DNA of 64,000 bases from Acetivibrio cellulolyticus CD2. GTDB taxonomy: Bacteria > Bacillota > Clostridia > Acetivibrionales > Acetivibrionaceae. The position numbers and the translations under genes were made by a program. The notes beneath the pieces are model-generated. The model had not been told where the DNA came from, did no database searches, and saw only the letters and a program-made list of their open reading frames with translations. Where the stretch lies: assembly GCF_000179595.2 (NCBI RefSeq), contig NZ_JH556657.1, positions 1 to 64,000 of the forward strand. The letters run 5' to 3'. Below, piece after piece: positions 1 through 9,020 of this stretch; positions within the stretch are counted from its first letter, which is position 1; the number at the start of each line of letters is the position of its first letter.

Positions 1-684
1 CAAAGTGAAGTTGCCTTTGCTTTTTGTCATCTTTTAGGATTTAATTTGATGCCTAGATTAAAGAATATTGGAAAGGCAAAACTATATCGCCCTGATGCTG
101 GTATATCAGATATGTATCCAAATTTGCAACCTATATTGACAAGAAATATCAATTGGGAACTTATAAGACAGCAATATGACCAAATGGTTAAATATGCTAC
201 TGCCTTACGTCTTGGAACTGCTGAAACCGAAGCCATTATGAAAAGATTTCAAAGAAATAATGAAATTAAACATCCTACATATCTTGCATTTATGGAACTG
301 GGTAAAGCTATAAAAACTATTTTTCTTTGTGAATATTTAAGGTCAGAGGAATTAAGAATTGAGATTCATGAAGGTCTTAATGTTATAGAAAACTGGAATT
401 CAGCTAACGGATTTATTTTTTATGGAAAAGGTGGAGAAATATCAACCAACAGGTATGAAGACCAAGAAATTGCAGTTTTGACATTACATTTATTACAAAA
501 TTGCCTTGTGTACGTTAATACTTTAATGATTCAAAAAGTTCTTACACAAAGCAAGTGGTATGATATTATGACACAAGAAGACTTCCGAGCACTCACACCA
601 CTTATCTATACACATATAAACCCATACGGAAACTTTGATTTGAATATGGAGGAAAGAATACCAATAGACATTGCCATAAATTAA
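1..684 (+). CDS. tnpA: Tn3-family transposase, C-terminal part
   Basis: The reading frame is open from base 1, so this is the 3' end of a longer gene; about 227 codons are visible of a protein that normally has about 970-1000 residues. The visible part matches the C-terminal catalytic DDE region of Tn3-type transposases: a segment like SEVAFALCHLLGF, then [15 protein letters not shown], and later an [21 protein letters not shown] stretch where the last catalytic acidic residue is expected. The TTG or ATG near 46-49 is internal and not a real start. The gene ends 15 bases before the transposon terminus. No resolvase is visible in the window. Confidence 0.85.
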
Positions 685-699
685 CATTTACTTTGCCCC
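1..699 (+). mobile_element. Right end of a Tn3-family transposon (partial)
   Basis: The transposase 3' end is followed after 15 bases by a CCCC run at 696-699. Read inward from outside this gives GGGG, the typical terminal sequence of Tn3-family inverted repeats. Beyond 699 the sequence is that of the interrupted regulator gene, so I place the element's edge at 699. Tn3 elements usually duplicate 5 bp of target, which would be TGGTG at 700-704. The other end lies outside the window, so the repeat pair and duplication cannot be verified here. Confidence 0.75.
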
Positions 700-1714
700 T
701 GGTGACACGGATGCTCCCACTACCCCTTGTTACCACAATTGTAGAGTTTTCTTCTTTGGAGAAAAATAAAATCTCATCATAGTTAAACAAATACATTTCT
801 TCATTTTCCCATGCAGCTATTTTTTCAATACGCATCTTTGGCACCATATCAGCCTGGGCTTTATCGTTATGCAACAAATCAGTACTCTGCACAGTTGTTT
901 TATTCAGTAAAGAAATATTATTCAAAAGCTTCGTTACATCAATATTATCAGCAGGCTCTGTCAAATACTTGATCATATTGCTTTGAAATACGCTAACAAG
1001 CTGATTTATCGTATAAGATGCATCATTATAAAAAGAGTCAACACTTTTAATATATACTTCAACGCTTGCAGGATCAGTATCACTTATATTATCACGAAGC
1101 GTCCTTATTGACTCAATTGCTGATTTTATAGATTTTAGAGAAACTCCAACCGCATCAGATAACTCCTCCGTTATACGGTTAACTGTTGAAACTTTCCTTA
1201 AAGACTCCAAAGCATCTGTGCTCTTTTTAATTTCTTCATCGCTTTCCATGGCCTCTCTTGCAAGCAATAAGTTCGCTTGTTTGAGCTCTTTGTTTTTATC
1301 CAGCCTTCTTTCATTTTCATGGTAGACTTTCAAAGCCTCATGAACAGCCGTATAAAGGTCCTTTCTTTCCCATGGCTTTGGTATGTACTTAAATATTCCA
1401 CCGTTATTAAGAGCATTCTTTATACCAGTCATACTAGCTTGTCCCGTAAGCAAAATCGATATCGTCTTAGGGCTTATATTCATTATTTCTTCAAGTAACT
1501 TATCCCCTTTAATACCAGGCATGATGTAATCAGAGATGACCAACGGAATTTCTTCCCCCGCCTCAAGAAATTCTTCTATCAGCGCCAGTGCTTCCTCTCC
1601 GCTTTCAGCTATTTCTATATTATAATTTCCACCGAATTCAAGCTCCAACTGTTCTCTCAAACTCCGAAGAATAATCATTTCATCGTCAACGCAAATGATG
1701 TAAGATTTGCCCAT
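602..1714 (-). pseudogene. Response regulator (REC + coiled coil + LytTR) truncated by Tn3 insertion
   Basis: The receiver domain spans residues 1-125, with acidic pocket D10/D11, phospho-acceptor D62 in SDYIMPG, switch T90 and K113 in IPKPW. A helical linker of roughly 170 residues follows. From about residue 300 comes the first half of a LytTR-like DNA-binding domain (WENEEMYLFNYDEILFF, then STIVVTRG). The frame then crosses the transposon edge at 699, and the last 32 or so residues are encoded by antisense transposase DNA. The output domain is therefore cut and DNA binding is probably lost. The start has a good RBS (AGGGAG). It lies 58 bp downstream of a paralogous regulator and may form an operon with it. 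The LytTR call rests on a half domain and is moderately certain. Confidence 0.75.
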
Positions 1715-1772: not shown

Positions 1773-2456
1773 TCATGTCCTGATATTGTTAAGAGTTTGA
1801 ATAATTTCTTCAATTTCATCAATACCTATATTATCTTCACTTACGGACAAATCGACTTTTGACTTGATCAGTGTAATCTTCTCATATAAATTACAAAGTA
1901 ATTTAAGATTTCTCTCCACTTCATCTGGATCCAAATCTTTGCCCTTTTCCTTGAGCTCTTGTCTCATATCTTCAAGCTTAAGTACTTTTTCTCTGATTTC
2001 CTTTTCTAACATTTCTTTTTTTCCCATCAAAGCACTGTTCTCCAAATCCAGATACGAAATGGCATCATAACGTTCAACAGCCTCTTGAATTAATACTTTC
2101 AACTCCTCATTATTCCACGGTTTCTCAATATATTTATAAAGGTTTGCGTTGTTTATCGCATTTGTAACTCCTTCAATGGTTGCCTGCCCTGACAGCATTA
2201 TTTTCTGCGTTCTTTCAGATATGGAATGAATCCTTTTCAGAAGCTCGTCGCCTTTCATGCCCGGCATTATATAGTCTATAATAACAACAGGAACTTCGTT
2301 CCCTGAATTAATTATTTCTTTAAATAATTCTAAGGCTTCCTCTCCGCTTTCGGCTATTTCAATACCAAACTCTGTGAATGTATTTTTTATTGAATTTCTG
2401 AGGCTCTGTAGAATGATATTTTCATCATCGACGCATAGAATTATTTTCTTTCCCAT
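1773..2456 (-). CDS. Receiver-domain response regulator with coiled-coil tail
   Basis: This 227-aa protein has an N-terminal receiver domain (residues 1-125) with D10/D11, phospho-acceptor D61 in IDYIMPGMKGD, switch S89 and K112 in EKPW. From about residue 140 the rest is charged heptad-rich helix with no DNA-binding or enzyme domain that I recognise, so output is likely by protein contact. The receiver is clearly paralogous to that of the neighbouring truncated regulator (same CVDDE, SGEEAL and IMPG blocks). It diverges from the ComQ-like gene, with about 175 bp between their starts. It is a plausible partner of the histidine kinase at 4090-6486, but that pairing is inferred from position only. 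RBS: GGGGGG, 6 bases before ATG. Confidence 0.8.
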   Translation of the reverse strand: MGKKIILCVDDENIILQSLRNSIKNTFTEFGIEIAESGEEALELFKEIINSGNEVPVVIIDYIMPGMKGDELLKRIHSISERTQKIMLSGQATIEGVTNAINNANLYKYIEKPWNNEELKVLIQEAVERYDAISYLDLENSALMGKKEMLEKEIREKVLKLEDMRQELKEKGKDLDPDEVERNLKLLCNLYEKITLIKSKVDLSVSEDNIGIDEIEEIIQTLNNIRT

Positions 2457-2631: not shown

Positions 2632-3606
2632 ATGCACTTTTTTGAAGATTTTAAAGAAGACCTATCATATGTATTTCAACACTGCCGTAAAAGAATAAAC
2701 GAATATCCTCCAATCTTTCAAAGTGAAGGTATAAATTTTCTTGACAAGTATGATGTACTAAAGAAAGAGAGCAATAAAAACTACATCTGTTACCTCCTTC
2801 CGTTCTGGCTCAAGGATTCACTGGGCATTGAAAATGAAATTGCTAAAAAAATATCAATTGCCAATACCTTTCTAATGCTCTACTTTTTGATACAAGATGA
2901 TATTATAGATCAACCGGCCTGCAAAAATAAAGGAACTCTGCTTCCCCTTGGGAACCTTTTTATGCTCGATTTTATGCACTGCTACCATGAATTATTTCCG
3001 GCTGGTTCGCCATTCTGGACCTACCTGCAAGAGTATACATATATTTGGTCAAAAAGCATGCTGTGGGAAAATACGGACGTTGATAGTACGCAAACTGCTT
3101 TCACTTCTGAAGATCTCAATATAATGGCATATAAAGCAGCCCCCTTAAAGGTAGCTGCAGTTGCAGCATGTTTATTGGGTGATAAAAAAGAACTCATTAA
3201 ACCGATTTCTGATACTGTCGATTTGATCCTTACAAGTCTTCAGGTCGTGGATGACTGGATTGATTGGCAGGAAGACCTTATATCCGGAAATCGCAACTAC
3301 ATTTTAAGCGGAGTTTTATCAAAAAAAGGTATTCATTCTTACTCTATGCTAAACGAAGCTGATGTCAAAAGAACTTTGTTTTTTTCCGACGTTTTGGTTG
3401 ATCTGTTCTCTATTATCGATAGCAATCACCTAAAAATTTCAGACCTCGGAAAAGATGCTTTTCCTTACTTGATTTCTTTTCATAAGAGCTTTTTAGATTA
3501 CAGTTCAAAGCTCAATATTGAATTGAATGAAGATAGGAACGTTTTAGTAAATGGTGGGCTCAACTATTACATGTATAATTATCATAAGAAAAAAGAACAT
3601 ACCTGA
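2632..3606 (+). CDS. ComQ-like class I isoprenoid synthase-fold protein
   Basis: This 324-aa all-helical protein carries both aspartate-rich motifs of trans-prenyl diphosphate synthases: DDIID at residues 89-93 and DDWID at 207-211, the latter followed by a WQED segment. A lysine-containing helix (YKAAPLK, about 167-173) precedes the second motif as in that family. Both motifs bind the Mg-diphosphate of a prenyl donor. The overall sequence is divergent from housekeeping farnesyl or geranylgeranyl synthases. The next gene, 101 bp downstream, encodes a small leader-type peptide ending in Trp, the same gene order as comQ-comX, where ComQ prenylates a Trp of the ComX pheromone. Peptide prenylation is therefore the favoured inference; a stand-alone terpenoid enzyme is the alternative. 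RBS AGGTGG precedes ATG. Confidence 0.8.
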   Translation: MHFFEDFKEDLSYVFQHCRKRINEYPPIFQSEGINFLDKYDVLKKESNKNYICYLLPFWLKDSLGIENEIAKKISIANTFLMLYFLIQDDIIDQPACKNKGTLLPLGNLFMLDFMHCYHELFPAGSPFWTYLQEYTYIWSKSMLWENTDVDSTQTAFTSEDLNIMAYKAAPLKVAAVAACLLGDKKELIKPISDTVDLILTSLQVVDDWIDWQEDLISGNRNYILSGVLSKKGIHSYSMLNEADVKRTLFFSDVLVDLFSIIDSNHLKISDLGKDAFPYLISFHKSFLDYSSKLNIELNEDRNVLVNGGLNYYMYNYHKKKEHT

Positions 3607-3629
3607 TATACATTAATTTCAAATATTTA

Positions 3630-3657
3630 TTGCCTTTTTCTTTTTTGATAATATAAT
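3630..3657 (+). promoter_or_regulatory. Sigma-A-type promoter of the NHLP precursor gene
   Basis: TTGCCT at 3630-3635 and a perfect TATAAT at 3652-3657 are separated by 16 bases, about 50 bases before the precursor's ATG. It sits between the ComQ-like gene and the precursor, so the peptide can be made independently of and more strongly than the enzyme. Confidence 0.6.
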
Positions 3658-3707
3658 TATTGTATAGCTTTTCTAATAAAAATATAATACCAAAGGGGAG
3701 AATGTTT

Positions 3708-3962
3708 ATGACAAATTACAAAGATTTTGAGGCAACAATAGTAAAAAAGGCATTAGAAGACCCTGAATTTAAAAAGAAATTAATTTCCGATCCTAAAGAT
3801 ACAGTAGAAGCATTAGCCAAAGAATTGTATGGCGATCAGGCATTTGCACTACCATCGGATTTAAAGATCAAAGTCATTGAAGAAACTCCTGATACATATT
3901 ATATAAGAATCCCTGCCATTAATCCAACCGATCCTAGAGAGCCTATTGTTGGATGCTGGTAA
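3708..3962 (+). CDS. NHLP-leader-type RiPP/pheromone precursor ending in GCW
   Basis: This 84-aa peptide was started at ATG 3708 because AGGGGAG lies 7 bases upstream. Residues 1-69 match the nitrile-hydratase-like leader peptide (NHLP) pattern: helical KKALEDPEFKKKLISDPK, then LPSDLKIKVIEETPDTYYIRIP. The short tail after the leader (about 70-84, AINPTDPREPIVGCW) is the likely core, with one Cys and a C-terminal Trp. No cyclase, lanthionine synthetase or ABC exporter is encoded nearby; the only candidate modifier is the ComQ-like enzyme just upstream. The inferred role is a secreted, prenylated signal peptide. The leader-family call is fairly sure, the product and modification are inference. 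Confidence 0.75.
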   Translation: MTNYKDFEATIVKKALEDPEFKKKLISDPKDTVEALAKELYGDQAFALPSDLKIKVIEETPDTYYIRIPAINPTDPREPIVGCW

Positions 3963-4027
3963 TAAAATTTCTGTGTGTATTTAACCCAATTAAATATTAG
4001 GATATTTGCTTTGCAAACATCTCAAAT

Positions 4028-4064
4028 AAAAATAGACAAATCCAAGAATGGTTTGTCTATTTTT
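4028..4064. terminator. Bidirectional terminator between precursor gene and kinase
   Basis: A perfect 13-bp stem (4028-4040 with 4052-4064) encloses an 11-base loop and has A and T runs at the outer ends. It can terminate the plus-strand precursor transcript and the convergent kinase transcript. Confidence 0.85.
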
Positions 4065-4089
4065 CATTTTCTGCTTATTACATTACAGG

Positions 4090-6486
4090 TCATTTTGGTA
4101 TTGAAACAGTAAAGGTAGTCTTCCCCGGCATACTCTCAACCGTTATTTCGCCATTATGTTTTTCAACTATACGTTTAACAATATCCAACCCCATACCACT
4201 TCCTTCTCCCTGAGGCTTTGTTGTAAAGAACGGTTCAAATATCCTGTCTTTAATTTCATCCGGTATACCTTTGCCGCTGTCGGTAATGCTAACAATAACA
4301 TTCTCACCTTTACCGTTAATATCAATTGTAAGTGTCCCCTTGAAATCCATAGCCTGCAGCGCATTGTGAATCAAATTAGCCCAAATCTGGTTCAGTTCAT
4401 CCGGATATCCAAGAATAGGCGAAACCTCTTCATAGTTTCTTATTACCTCTACATTGTGTTTGATTCTATTATGGTACAATGTAAGAGTCATTTCAATGTT
4501 GTCAGTTATATCAACCTCAATCATTTGCGTGTGTTCACTTTGATGTGCATATGATTTTAACGCAAAAACAACTTTGGACGTTTTATCTGTTGCTATTGAT
4601 ATTGTGTGAGAATTCTTTTGAATACTTGAAAACAAATATGCAACTTTTATTATAAAAGCATAATTTTCACAACGGAATACCCCTTTAAAAGCTTGAATAT
4701 CAAAAACTCCCATTGTCACAAGATTTTCAGCAATTCCCTCTGAATCTTCAACCCTGTATTCTTCCAGCTGCTTTATAATACTGCGTCGGTATTCACGCTC
4801 TTCCCTTGAAGAAATATAAACTTGATTTTGAGTTGCCATATTAAGAATTTCAAAAAAATACGGGCTATTTTCCTCATTTAAAAACCTGTTAATCTCCGGT
4901 AAACTTTTATAAACTTGATCCAATGATTCCGAAATATTTGTTATAGAAGCCTGTATTGCACCGAGAGGAGTATTGATTTCGTGCGCAACACCTGACACAA
5001 GTTGACCCAAAGCTGCCATTTTTTCTGATTTTATTAGATAATCTTGTGTTTCTCTAAGTGTTTCAAGTGTACTTCCAAGTTCATTATTTGATGCAATCAA
5101 TTCTTCATTTAAGAGAGAAAGTTCCTCATTAGCCTCCTGAAGCTGTTCCGTTCTCTCAGATACTCGTTTTTCCAGAGTAATATTAAGATCTGCCAGCTTA
5201 TCCCTTGATTCTTTAATCTCTTTCCACATGCTGTCCAACTCAATATTTTTCAATTCAAGCTCCTTTGAATAGGTTATTACTTTAGTAAAGTTTATTGCTG
5301 ACCTCCGTCCTAAAATAAGCCCTAATGAAAGAATAAAAAGCAAAATCCCCCATTTCCATAAAAAGAATTCGTAGTCTTTGATAATTATAAACAGAATTAA
5401 CTCTATCCCGCACGTCAGTGCAAAAAGAGAAAACCCTGCTGTAAATATTTTTGCATCTGCATTTCCCTTAAATGCATAGAGTATTGAAGTTCCGATGAGC
5501 ATTGCAAACTGAATCACCATAATTATGCCCAAAAGATTTATCGATATAAAATATTCAAATTCCACAATTTTATATCCCGATAAAATATCAATAATATACA
5601 CTGCAATACAAAAAACTGAATATGTAGCTTGGAAGTAAAAAGACTTTTTTAATATATTTTTTCGTCCCGGACCAAAAATCTGAAGGAAAAAATACATCAA
5701 AAAAACGACAAGCAGTAAAAGACATATACTGAATGTCAGTGTAAGGTACTGATCGAAATTGCTAAAAAGAATAATAAGCGTAGGATAAATTGCAGCCATT
5801 AGACCTAATATAAGTACTATTAGCCCTAATATAAGAAACTCCTTTTTTCTGTCTTTTAATAAGAACAGTGCAAAAACAAATAGAATCAGCCCCATCAATA
5901 CAAAACTCAATCCTAACGGAATATTGAAAAAGTCTTCAAAGAAAAACTCAGGGTACAAAGTATTGTAACTCCCTATTGAAATCTTCCCGGCAGGACCAAA
6001 CTTTCCATAAATAGACTGAGTTCTAATATATATTGTCTTTCCGCCACTATCAGCCTCCAAAGGTATTATAAACCTGTTTATATCAAATAAATATCTGCGG
6101 CTTTTTTCATAGACTATTTTCCCATCAATATAAACTTCAATTGATTGGCCATAAACAAGTTCAAAATATATACATTTGCCTTGCAAATTCCCTTCCGGGA
6201 TACTATTTTTAAACCAAACAGCCTTAGTCTTTTGATCCAGACCCGACAAACCCTCTTTGGCATCGACTTTTCTCCACGGCACTTTATCCTGCTCTTCCTT
6301 TGTCCACCTTGGTAAATCAATACACTCAGATGGCAAATCCTCAGGGTAATACTCCCATTGTTTTTCAATTCCAACAAGACCCAAATCAGGGCTTGCAAAG
6401 CTTTGCATCTGGAATATACAAACAGGCAGAATTACAAAAAACATAATCAAAAAACGCATTTTCGAAATTGCTGACTCTTTTTTCAT
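4090..6486 (-). CDS. 7TMR-DISM sensor histidine kinase
   Basis: This is a 798-aa membrane kinase. I prefer ATG at 6486 (AGGGTGAG upstream) over the in-frame TTG at 6507. Order: signal-like hydrophobic N-terminus; extracellular beta-rich domain to about residue 180 (resembling 7TMR-DISM extracellular type 2); seven membrane helices between about 190 and 400; a coiled coil; HisKA with phospho-acceptor His in VSGVAHEINTP; and a HATPase domain with the N box (NLIHNALQAM), DSGKGIP, FEPFFTTK and GSGMGL. All catalytic boxes are intact. It sits directly downstream of the second NHLP-type gene and convergent with the precursor gene, so it is the candidate receptor for a locally encoded signal. It is not an orthologue of ComP, whose dimerisation domain is of the HisKA_3 type. 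Confidence 0.9.
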   Translation of the reverse strand: MKKESAISKMRFLIMFFVILPVCIFQMQSFASPDLGLVGIEKQWEYYPEDLPSECIDLPRWTKEEQDKVPWRKVDAKEGLSGLDQKTKAVWFKNSIPEGNLQGKCIYFELVYGQSIEVYIDGKIVYEKSRRYLFDINRFIIPLEADSGGKTIYIRTQSIYGKFGPAGKISIGSYNTLYPEFFFEDFFNIPLGLSFVLMGLILFVFALFLLKDRKKEFLILGLIVLILGLMAAIYPTLIILFSNFDQYLTLTFSICLLLLVVFLMYFFLQIFGPGRKNILKKSFYFQATYSVFCIAVYIIDILSGYKIVEFEYFISINLLGIIMVIQFAMLIGTSILYAFKGNADAKIFTAGFSLFALTCGIELILFIIIKDYEFFLWKWGILLFILSLGLILGRRSAINFTKVITYSKELELKNIELDSMWKEIKESRDKLADLNITLEKRVSERTEQLQEANEELSLLNEELIASNNELGSTLETLRETQDYLIKSEKMAALGQLVSGVAHEINTPLGAIQASITNISESLDQVYKSLPEINRFLNEENSPYFFEILNMATQNQVYISSREEREYRRSIIKQLEEYRVEDSEGIAENLVTMGVFDIQAFKGVFRCENYAFIIKVAYLFSSIQKNSHTISIATDKTSKVVFALKSYAHQSEHTQMIEVDITDNIEMTLTLYHNRIKHNVEVIRNYEEVSPILGYPDELNQIWANLIHNALQAMDFKGTLTIDINGKGENVIVSITDSGKGIPDEIKDRIFEPFFTTKPQGEGSGMGLDIVKRIVEKHNGEITVESMPGKTTFTVSIPK

Positions 6487-6551
6487 AGCTCTCACCCTTT
6501 TTAACAAAAGACACTAATACTTCTTATATTTCAAACTTATGGATTAAAAAC

Positions 6552-6881
6552 CTACTCCGACGGCATAACAAAAAAACGCACACTTGCAGTTTCTTCAAGC
6601 TGCTCAATTTTGACATCCTGAGGAATTGTAACATTTCCTTTATCAATATAAGGCGCTATTTGATAATATGTATCAGGCTTTGCCTCTATCGCTTTGATTA
6701 CAAAGTCTTCAGGCAAAGGTAAGTCCTTTCTTGTAAGCCCCCAGTTTTCCATAAGAACTTTTTCAACTGCTGCTGTAGCATCTTCCAGCATCTCTTTTCT
6801 AAATTCCTTATCTGTACAAGCCTTTTGATAAACTGCATACCACAATTGCTGTTCAAGAATCATTATATCTATCTCTGTCAT
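6552..6881 (-). CDS. Second NHLP-related small protein, co-directional with the kinase
   Basis: This 109-aa protein has the NHLP leader pattern at residues 14-75: helical WYAVYQKACTDKEFRKEML, then LPLPEDFVIKAIEAKPDTYYQ. It continues with about 35 further residues (KGNVTIPQDVKIEQLEE) that lack Cys and do not look like a typical core. It precedes the kinase by 65 bp on the same strand and probably shares its transcript. It could be a second precursor, a carrier or chaperone derived from an NHLP leader, or an accessory sensor subunit. RBS GGAGAGGG lies 8 bases before ATG. Family membership is read from the motif; the function is unknown. Confidence 0.65.
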   Translation of the reverse strand: MTEIDIMILEQQLWYAVYQKACTDKEFRKEMLEDATAAVEKVLMENWGLTRKDLPLPEDFVIKAIEAKPDTYYQIAPYIDKGNVTIPQDVKIEQLEETASVRFFVMPSE

Positions 6882-7161: not shown

Positions 7162-8043
7162 TTACTGCATAGTCAAAGTTAAATCTCTTAACCAGTACTT
7201 TGAACGCATTTTGCTTGTTGCTTCAATCTTTATTACATTAGTTCCTTTTACCAAATAATCTTTTATACTAAAGTCCTCTGCTACATATCCAGCCGACCCT
7301 TTAGGCTGGTATTCGGTTAAAACATATTTGCCATTAACAATTAAATTTATAGGTGAATATCCACCACCTGGTATCATTGAAGATAGCTGATTGAGAGTAA
7401 GTACTGCTGTTGATGGTGTGCTGGTTAAATCAAACTCTGCCTGAAAGTTATCTCCGTTGACAAAAGTATGTACACCGTAACCGGAATCATAATATGCTGT
7501 GCATGAAGTCTTCAAGCCACTTGCTGCTATTGGACTTTTTGTAAGATCAGCTGTCAAAACTGTCTTTTGAACGTTATTTCTAACCTGTTCAGCATACACT
7601 ACTATATTTGCAGAACCTTTTGCACCCTGATATGAATTATCTGCTTCAAGCGAAAAGTTATATACAACCTTGAATGTCGCTGTCTTACCAGGTTCAATTA
7701 TCTGCCAGTTATTATCCTGAACAGTTAATGTCAAAGGATATTTACCTTCAAAAATAGTTCCGCTTTTTTGAATTTCTTTAATATTTACTCTAGCTGCAAG
7801 TGTTCCCATGTTTTGCACAGTAACATCAAAAATCTCACTGTCACCAGGTGCTAAATTACTAAAGAACTTTGTTGTTGATACTGCTGGTTGAGCAGATATA
7901 TCCTTAATAATTACCGTTCCTGCTGTAAACGGATTATTTGCATTGACTGCGTTGCTTGTAAACAGTGCCATAGTACCTGCACCAACTAACATTGATATAA
8001 TTACTGTAGATATTATTGCTGTGATAAATATACTTTTTTTCAT
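7162..8043 (-). CDS. TasA/camelysin-like secreted matrix protein with C-terminal jelly-roll-like domain
   Basis: This 293-aa secreted protein has a signal peptide of the TasA/CalY type (hydrophobic MKKSIFITAIIS segment, GAGTMALF, then NPFTAGT). Residues 40-175 form a beta-rich TasA/CalY-like domain with the NLAPGDSEIFDVTVQNMGT block. The last 120 residues or so look like an additional beta-sandwich, perhaps a glycan-binding module. TasA-like proteins assemble extracellular fibres in biofilms. SipW-type signal peptidase is encoded immediately upstream, as in tapA-sipW-tasA. The domain extension makes it longer than canonical TasA (about 260 aa); the identity of that extension is uncertain. RBS AAGGGGA precedes ATG. 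Confidence 0.75.
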   Translation of the reverse strand: MKKSIFITAIISTVIISMLVGAGTMALFTSNAVNANNPFTAGTVIIKDISAQPAVSTTKFFSNLAPGDSEIFDVTVQNMGTLAARVNIKEIQKSGTIFEGKYPLTLTVQDNNWQIIEPGKTATFKVVYNFSLEADNSYQGAKGSANIVVYAEQVRNNVQKTVLTADLTKSPIAASGLKTSCTAYYDSGYGVHTFVNGDNFQAEFDLTSTPSTAVLTLNQLSSMIPGGGYSPINLIVNGKYVLTEYQPKGSAGYVAEDFSIKDYLVKGTNVIKIEATSKMRSKYWLRDLTLTMQ

Positions 8044-8181
8044 AGTTATATTCCCCTTTTAAATTTATTTGCTCATTTAATTTGAGCTGTTTATATAACC
8101 CTTTAAAAGCTCATTATCATTGGGCCCATACTTTGATAATTACTTTTAAAGATATTACGTTCATGTTTTTAAAAACTACTT

Positions 8182-8733
8182 TTACATTTTTGAATCTACA
8201 CTGCACTTATAGGCAATTTTTAGAGATTTTATCAAATTGGGAACTGCCAAAACGATGAAGGATATCAGAAGTAAGAATATAATCCCGCTTTTTGTTTTCA
8301 GAAAGCTAAATATATAACCTGCAAAAGGTATACGAACCCCAATATATTTTCCTACTATATCTTCCGGAGTAATATAATTTAAGTCCTCCGCATTGTTATT
8401 ATCGCCTTTGGTTACGTACTGACAGGTATCATTTACAATCTTTTCACTTACAATTCTATGTGTTACCAGCATATTGTAATCTTTTGATCTGAAAGTCACA
8501 ACTTCTCCAGCCTCATAGGTATCCATAGGACTTTTCTCCTTGATTACTATAATGGAACCGGTTTTTATGGAAGGCTCCATTGAACCTGAAAGAACTGTGA
8601 GAATTTCATACCCGAATACGTTTGGAGAACTGCCAGTCATTTTAGCTGCTATTACAAAACACAAACTAAAAATAGTTGTTAAAATAATTGTACCTAAAAT
8701 AACCTTTCCTAAAACCATTTTCACTTTTAACAT
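8182..8733 (-). CDS. sipW: Signal peptidase I, SipW (ER-type) family
   Basis: This 183-aa membrane protease has an N-terminal membrane helix, the SGSMEPSIKTGS box with nucleophile Ser, a LVTHRIV box where His replaces the Lys of bacterial-type enzymes, a TKGDNN box, and a C-terminal membrane helix. Ser-His catalysis and this layout are characteristic of SipW-type peptidases, which mature TasA and TapA. Its start overlaps the stop of the preceding small gene (TAATG), implying translational coupling. The presumed substrate is the TasA-like protein encoded 139 bp downstream. Confidence 0.88.
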   Translation of the reverse strand: MLKVKMVLGKVILGTIILTTIFSLCFVIAAKMTGSSPNVFGYEILTVLSGSMEPSIKTGSIIVIKEKSPMDTYEAGEVVTFRSKDYNMLVTHRIVSEKIVNDTCQYVTKGDNNNAEDLNYITPEDIVGKYIGVRIPFAGYIFSFLKTKSGIIFLLLISFIVLAVPNLIKSLKIAYKCSVDSKM

Positions 8734-9020
8734 TACTCGTCCTCCCTCAGAAATTCTAATGGATCATTTACTTTCTTCTCACCTTCCACATTTCCGGCCG
8801 CCCCATATACTGCTCCCATTACAGTTTCGGGCTCATTTTTTACATCTGTCTCTACTTTGAAAGCTCCTGTCTCAATGGATATGCTATTGTTTACCAGTGC
8901 ATAAGAAGGCTTTATGTTCTGAATTAATGCAATTATGGCTAAAAACCAAACCAGATACAAAGCTATCCAAACTACTGCCTGATAAAATCTTTTAATTTTA
9001 TATAACAATTTACAATCCAT
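8733..9020 (-). CDS. Small membrane/secreted protein of the sipW operon
   Basis: This 95-aa protein has one hydrophobic helix (about residues 14-37) followed by SYALVNNSISIETGAFKV, which resembles the post-signal segment of camelysin/TasA proteins. The remaining tail is acidic and polar. It is translationally coupled to sipW and is first in the three-gene operon, the position occupied by tapA in Bacillus, though no sequence similarity to TapA is evident. It may be a SipW substrate or an anchor for the fibre protein. RBS GGGGAG is 7 bases before ATG. Confidence 0.6.
   Translation of the reverse strand: MDCKLLYKIKRFYQAVVWIALYLVWFLAIIALIQNIKPSYALVNNSISIETGAFKVETDVKNEPETVMGAVYGAAGNVEGEKKVNDPLEFLREDE

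Follow-up and report, generated by a model that had tools for sequence, protein, structure and literature searches.

The window examined here is a stretch of 64,000 nucleotides from Acetivibrio cellulolyticus CD2 (contig NZ_JH556657.1, positions 1 to 64,000 of the forward strand). The gene cassette at positions 2,632 to 6,881 is probably a clostridial prenyl-peptide signalling cassette of the PalQ/PalX/PalP type, at a probability of roughly 0.68. It consists of an enzyme with an isoprenoid-synthase fold, a small precursor peptide with an NHLP leader and a C-terminal tryptophan, and a sensor histidine kinase of the 7TMR-DISM type, with two response regulator genes on the far side of the enzyme gene. 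The assignment is based on homology, on invariant catalytic and tryptophan-contact residues of the enzyme, on an invariant Trp in the peptide tail, on a conserved gene set, on an intact kinase and on LytTR output in relatives. The cassette is a new clostridial variant. Its novelty lies in two linked regulators, one a receiver protein and the other a LytTR DNA-binding regulator, which make the signalling path complete on paper.

The PalQ/PalX/PalP genes of Paenibacillus alvei form a three-gene cluster that is conserved in Paenibacillus (Miyata, Ito and Fujinami 2023, PMC10853753). PalQ prenylates the C-terminal Trp of PalX at C3 in vitro; the NHLP leader of PalX is helpful, but not essential, and an Ala extension after the Trp abolishes the activity (PMC10853753). 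The reported PalQ residues are D89 and D93 of the first aspartate-rich motif (FARM), Q197, which a model places in contact with the indole NH, and D200 and D204 of the second aspartate-rich motif (SARM) (PMC10853753). A 2026 review describes PalQ as a prenyltransferase resembling trans-isoprenyl diphosphate synthases (trans-IDS) (PMC13290415). The enzyme activity, the specificity for a C-terminal Trp and the assistance by the leader have thus been shown for the family by others. An earlier reading of the window, referred to below as the original prediction, placed all the genes where they are found and knew of no description of their combination; the system reported in 2023 is of the same kind (PMC10853753).

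The putative prenyltransferase

The enzyme gene (2632..3606 including the stop codon, + strand) encodes a putative PalQ-like peptide tryptophan prenyltransferase of 324 amino acids. Both isoprenoid-synthase Asp motifs of the original prediction are present, DDIID as D89-D93 and DDWID as D207-D211. The AlphaFold2 model of the enzyme (pLDDT 92.6) has the trans-isoprenyl-diphosphate-synthase fold. Its best match among solved structures is the polyprenyl synthase 4jyx (Z 25.0, root mean square deviation 2.6 A over 281 residues, 15% identity), and a sequence search of the Protein Data Bank gave no match among solved structures. Across 69 homologs D89, D93, D207 and D211 are invariant, and the Gln preceding the second motif, Q204, is retained in 67, the two others being the cyanobacterial and the Anaerolineae enzymes. 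About 20 Paenibacillus homologs carry D89, D93, Q197, D200 and D204, which is exactly the numbering reported for PalQ.

The clostridial enzymes are 20-38% identical to the Paenibacillus-type enzymes. In the phylogenetic tree the window enzyme groups with Herbivorax (support 97/85) within a PalQ-like clade that includes the Paenibacillus enzymes. ComQ, represented by the database proteins L125-L128, is set apart by a 100/100 branch, whose length of 5.84 calls for the usual long-branch caution. A profile comparison with ComQ (hhalign) is weak (E 0.047) and brings both motifs into register, the Gln included. A very divergent enzyme homolog of 301 amino acids with a long tree branch is found in L123 (G030:C58, 7597-8502), where no NHLP or kinase gene was detected nearby.

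The precursor peptide

The peptide gene (3708..3962, + strand) encodes a PalX-like precursor of 84 amino acids, ending in ...PREPIVGCW. The reading frame starts with the ATG at 3708 behind the ribosome-binding site AAAGGGGAG, while the TTG at 3660 gives no more than a longer reading. The peptide scores 51.5 bits against the NHLP leader family TIGR03793, above the cut-off of 50.9. The promoter of the gene, originally described as strong, is a possible sigma-70 promoter at 3630..3657 (+ strand; TTGCCT-16-TATAAT); the consensus match is good, but such matches are barely more frequent in the region than expected by chance (28 observed, 19.3 +/- 4.9 expected).

The peptides used to examine the tail were collected through leader and enzyme homology and not through the Trp. 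Of the 91 peptides, 60 end in Trp; in 27 the last Trp is the penultimate residue, and in three it is the third or fourth residue from the C-terminus. The sole peptide lacking it is the window's own second NHLP protein, which is also the one exception in a count of 92 peptides, of which 91 carry a Trp among the final four residues. Clustering at 50% identity resulted in 34 unlike tails; in their last 20 residues nothing is invariant except a Trp within the final four, the entropy exceeding 2.3 bits at all other positions. The tail Trp, therefore, does not vary freely. In the five genomes of the neighbouring genus the peptides end in DYEW, DYEW, DYNW, GYSW and DYDW, while the preceding ten residues differ. 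As a control, the NHLP peptides of Clostridia genomes that do not encode the enzyme have other endings, e.g. GGKGQV and LFK. By homology to the tested PalQ/PalX pair, the window peptide is very probably prenylated.

The Gly-Cys-Trp tail of the original prediction stands with respect to the Trp, but among the tail clusters the Cys occurs in this strain only, so that a role for it is not supported; Gly-Cys-Trp as a signal motif was rejected, conservation being limited to the Trp. In Paenibacillus cellulosilyticus (L008/L086) a single enzyme gene is followed by five tandem NHLP peptide genes, and their tails, KYTWV, KFVWI, KYNWL, KYVWF and PFIWT, all have a penultimate Trp, the position that PalQ does not accept.

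The sensor kinase

The kinase gene (4090..6486, - strand) is convergent with the peptide gene, and a terminator-like hairpin without assigned strand (4028..4064) lies between the two. It encodes a PalP-like 7TMR-DISM-type sensor histidine kinase of 798 amino acids. The protein has a signal helix, and the seven-helix topology proposed originally is borne out by its seven hydrophobic segments (191-392), with which the AlphaFold2 model agrees. The protein is composed of a beta ectodomain (~44-173), seven helices (188-~400), a coiled coil, HisKA and HATPase, the last with a match of 2.4e-27. This is the 7TMR-DISM layout, in which seven transmembrane helices join a beta-rich extracellular domain to an output part in the cytoplasm. 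The homologous kinase of L121 passes the PF07695 cut-off with 34.2 bits. The structure search of the kinase was confined to its cytoplasmic part.

Whatever the distance between the enzymes, divergence is faster in the ectodomain and the transmembrane part than in the kinase part. A receptor that follows a variable ligand would be expected to show this pattern, though it is common in kinases. It is likely that the kinase senses the prenylated peptide of the adjacent gene.

Conservation of the gene set

A first genome scan with a single protein as the query gave no match, and a query built from the enzyme alignment was needed. With this alignment a scan of species genomes yielded 80 loci, mostly of Paenibacillus and Cohnella, with one of Anaerolineae. 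The loci analysed, with duplicates and three outliers set aside, came to 80 distinct ones, and the enzyme gene, a same-strand NHLP gene and a convergent kinase gene occur together in 75 of these (Paenibacillus, Cohnella, Herbivorax and others). The enzyme was present in 79 of 100 genomes of one large Paenibacillaceae genus, and a search of viral contigs gave no homologs.

Whole-genome search identified the enzyme, at 33-36% identity, in all five genomes of the neighbouring genus that were examined, Acetivibrio alkalicellulosi and Herbivorax sp. ANBcel31 among them. The four loci with complete flanks have the order of the window, RR1-RR2 diverging from enzyme-NHLP and the kinase convergent; the fifth is cut short by a contig edge. 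In L122, a more distant Clostridia genome, the enzyme, an NHLP peptide (...DPVTVW), the kinase, RR2 and RR1 occur in a changed order. That the five genes stay together in spite of the new order favours one functional unit. Among 391 Clostridia genomes the enzyme was found in four and the NHLP peptide in six, and all four enzyme genomes are among those six (p ~1.6e-8, an optimistic value, some genomes being related). The pairing of enzyme and peptide genes, on which the original prediction depended, is thus kept in relatives.

Several loci depart from the usual composition. In L035, L053, L059 and L068 the first NHLP-kinase pair is directly followed by another, but by no further enzyme gene; this suggests that peptide-receptor pairs were duplicated and are served by one enzyme. 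Enzyme homologs beside an NHLP protein are also present on a plasmid of Tolypothrix sp. PCC 7910 (L009, Cyanobacteriota) and in Anaerolineae (L092, Chloroflexota); the Anaerolineae peptide ends in Trp (GLTFW), and the Tolypothrix peptide does not. In a sister clade of the enzyme, L124 (G354:C151, 8841-14669) and L121 (G027:C9, 8180-13830), a gene for a stand-alone LanM-type dehydratase comes after the enzyme gene (DUF4135; E 1e-99 in L124, 2e-113 in L121). L124 additionally encodes two subtilases and, where its contig ends, an incomplete kinase; L121 has a DISM-type kinase. The NHLP tails of the two loci carry Tyr/Thr in place of Trp (ATYVP, SVTY, QSMYP, QTAIY), and the clade may represent a variant with Tyr modification or with two modifications.

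Response regulators and neighbouring genes

The reading frames of the receiver proteins (602-2456, - strand) are divergent from the enzyme gene. RR2 (1773..2456, - strand), consisting of a receiver domain and a helical tail with no DNA-binding domain, is kept in the Herbivorax loci and in L122. The outer gene, RR1, turned out not to be whole. What is left of it in the window (727..1714, - strand) is the N-terminal part of a LytTR response regulator, a Tn3-family transposon having cut the gene at 726/727. The transposon end occupies window bases 1-726 (+ strand) with the transposase (PF01526, 2e-67; DDE domain 46-684) and a terminal inverted repeat at ~680-726, and identical transposon ends are found elsewhere in the genome. 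The missing LytTR half is located on another contig, C1:1122-1356, abutting the matching inverted repeat. The 5-bp target duplication AACAA (ttgtt at 727-731 of the window) is present on both sides of the split. Duplications of this length are typical of Tn3.

Only across the empty site of the transposon does RR1 read as a receiver plus LytTR, a protein of 405 amino acids that is colinear with RR1 of L122 (41% identity, E 3e-109). The intact homologs combine both domains (PF04397, 3.4e-24 in L012 of Herbivorax and 3.7e-26 in L122). The split halves, the transposon and the intact relatives indicate that the ancestral locus held a complete path from the peptide to a DNA-binding regulator. The sequence of this strain indicates that its locus has lost the DNA-binding half of RR1, so that the LytTR output branch is probably lost. 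LytTR-type direct repeats were not found in the RR2-enzyme intergenic region by a simple test. As the transposon ends (window 1-731; C1:1075-1356) sit on different contigs, contigs C1 and C7 are probably neighbours. On C1, a gene read from the sequence as encoding a cellulase-like protein with a dockerin-like end (L106, 1461-3695, - strand) is convergent with the severed LytTR half.

The second NHLP-like protein (6552..6881, - strand; 109 amino acids) is encoded just upstream of the kinase gene on the same strand and has no tail Trp. Its proposed resemblance to the NHLP family holds, at 34.8 bits, but the score is below the TIGR03793 cut-off, and the protein was not found beside the cassette in relatives. 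Genes for a SipW-like signal peptidase and a TasA-like SipW-dependent protein (7162-9020, - strand) adjoin it; they were not found in the cassette loci of relatives and are not counted as part of the cassette.

Proposed mechanism and alternative explanations

The NHLP leader of the 84-residue precursor would dock on the PalQ-like enzyme. With a prenyl diphosphate as the donor, the enzyme would prenylate the C-terminal Trp with a group predicted to be C5-C15, probably at indole C3 and with formation of a pyrroloindole by ring closure. The leader may then be cut off by a protease somewhere downstream of the conserved ...Y(I/V)IP region, and the short lipidated tail would leave the cell by a putative export route. 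The 7TMR-DISM kinase would recognize the peptide through its ectodomain or its seven-helix part and phosphorylate both regulators, the stand-alone receiver RR2 and the LytTR DNA-binding RR1, which would set the output. Quorum sensing is a plausible biological use.

Several points weigh against this scheme. Within ~6 kb no exporter or protease is conserved across the loci, in which unlabelled gene clusters were not all identified, and response regulators consistently adjoin the cassette only in Clostridia. The kinase falls short of the PF07695 cut-off by 0.4 bits (28.6 against 29). The P. alvei paper proposes no signalling role (PMC10853753), and no experiment was found in which a PalP-type kinase senses a prenyl peptide. 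PalQ of P. alvei itself (UniProt K4ZRG6) was compared by way of the Paenibacillus homologs with identical residue numbering as stand-ins. About one third of the tails have one to three residues after the Trp, an extension that PalQ rejected in vitro; specificity must, therefore, vary within the family. The penultimate-Trp tails (about one third of the loci), set against the strict C-terminal rule of PalQ, point to such varied specificity or to trimming.

The prenylated peptide might instead be an effector, namely a membrane-active, antimicrobial-like ribosomally synthesized and post-translationally modified peptide (RiPP), with the kinase and the regulators only controlling production or providing protection, as in autoregulated bacteriocin clusters. 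NHLP leaders do belong to RiPP natural-product clusters, PalQ-type Trp geranylation has been reported to raise the activity of antimicrobial peptides, and the pairing of the enzyme with DUF4135 dehydratases in L121 and L124, and with subtilases in L124, is more product-cluster-like. The Trp-tailed loci, however, have no conserved exporter, immunity gene or second modifying enzyme, their short tails are hypervariable around one fixed residue in the manner of pheromones, and a kinase accompanies nearly every peptide gene, including the duplicated peptide-kinase pairs of L035, L053, L059 and L068. An effector role is, on this evidence, unlikely.

Carbohydrate or envelope-state sensing has been proposed for other 7TMR-DISM receptors. 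The kinase could, accordingly, respond to a cue of this kind and merely control the production of a prenyl peptide by the enzyme-NHLP pair; its gene is on the opposite strand, its beta ectodomain could bind sugars, and the split regulator gene has a cellulase-like neighbour on C1. This is rather improbable, since the N-terminal half of the kinase is linked to the enzyme in almost all loci, those of distant families included, and since duplicated NHLP genes are accompanied by duplicated kinases. An ordinary isoprenyl diphosphate or terpene synthase beside an unrelated NHLP gene would agree with the polyprenyl-synthase fold and both Asp motifs of the enzyme. The enzyme, however, scores 19.5 bits against polyprenyl_synt PF00348, below the cut-off of 27, and one true polyprenyl synthase (206.7 bits) is encoded elsewhere in the genome. 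As the enzyme also falls in a separate clade with the Paenibacillus enzymes, a housekeeping prenyl synthase was rejected; together with the Trp tail, the gene linkage and the PalQ precedent, this makes an ordinary synthase highly improbable.

If the kinase reads the prenylated tail, as the signalling-cassette reading holds, prenyl-peptide signalling would extend beyond the ComQXPA family, with another, separately assembled system in roughly four of every five genomes of one large Paenibacillaceae genus and in Clostridia. For the 7TMR-DISM receptors, few of whose ligands are known, this would mean a defined class of peptide ligands that can be synthesized. The chances are slightly better than even that this is a widespread second form of prenyl-peptide cell-cell signalling, distinct from ComQXPA, in which the terminal Trp of NHLP peptides is prenylated and read by 7TMR-DISM kinases feeding LytTR regulators, and in which the sister branch may instead act on tails with Tyr or dehydrated Thr/Ser. 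The response regulator missing beside the Paenibacillus cassettes can be named from the clostridial loci, so that the full path is testable. The PalQ-type system is much more widespread than its Paenibacillus description of 2023, and its terminal, penultimate and slightly internal Trp acceptors are natural variants of the PalQ lipidation tool for biotechnology.

Comparison with known systems

No description of a clostridial cassette, of a DISM kinase as the receptor or of LytTR output was found in the literature searched, subscription papers and preprints lying outside the search. The closest known system, PalQ/PalX/PalP, shares with the window an isoprenoid-synthase-fold enzyme with the FARM Asp pair (D89, D93 in the window enzyme), the Gln before the SARM (Q204) and the SARM Asp pair (D207, D211), an NHLP precursor with a conserved C-terminal Trp, and an adjacent histidine kinase. 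The clostridial locus differs in having two divergent response regulators, one of them LytTR, and a second NHLP-like protein before the kinase; the tail is VGCW in the window and RRFFW in P. alvei. The core pattern of P. alvei PalX was absent from the 396 Paenibacillaceae genomes searched.

The RiPP clusters with NHLP leaders (TIGR03793) have the same precursor leader family, whereas the modification in the cassette would be prenylation; no cyclase, dehydratase or peptidase-exporter was found in it, and the original prediction likewise had no RiPP cyclase or exporter there. Two-component systems of the AgrCA type consist of a membrane kinase and a LytTR regulator that read a modified peptide. 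The window has both types of protein, and peptide reading is predicted for it. Its kinase, however, is of the HisKA + HATPase type with a 7TM DISM-type sensor, its peptide is of the NHLP/prenyl and not the thiolactone kind, and no AgrB was seen.

In comQXPA of Bacillus, ComQ prenylates a Trp of pre-ComX, and the multi-helix kinase ComP senses the product. The window likewise has an isoprenoid-synthase-type enzyme, a small precursor with a Trp in its C-terminal region, a multi-helix histidine kinase and a response regulator. ComX, however, belongs to PF05952, and the NHLP peptide of the window does not match it, while an Anoxybacillus ComX used as a control does. ComQ passes PF00348, but is without a normal second Asp motif. 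ComP has HisKA_3 and ComA a GerE/LuxR domain (HisKA_3 and GerE in the Anoxybacillus control), in contrast to HisKA/HATPase and LytTR in the window. The four com genes lie in a row on one strand, whereas the kinase gene of the window is convergent and the regulator genes are divergent. A census of ComQXPA loci, sought with models of ComQ, ComX, ComP and ComA, included Clostridiales and one com-like locus of Paenibacillus (PMC4008528). Membership in ComQXPA was rejected on the precursor family, the kinase and regulator class, the gene layout and the grouping of the enzyme. The analogy drawn by the original prediction stands, but literal kinship does not, ComQ being remote and the other parts not belonging to homologous subfamilies; the cassette probably works like ComQXPA without being a member of it.

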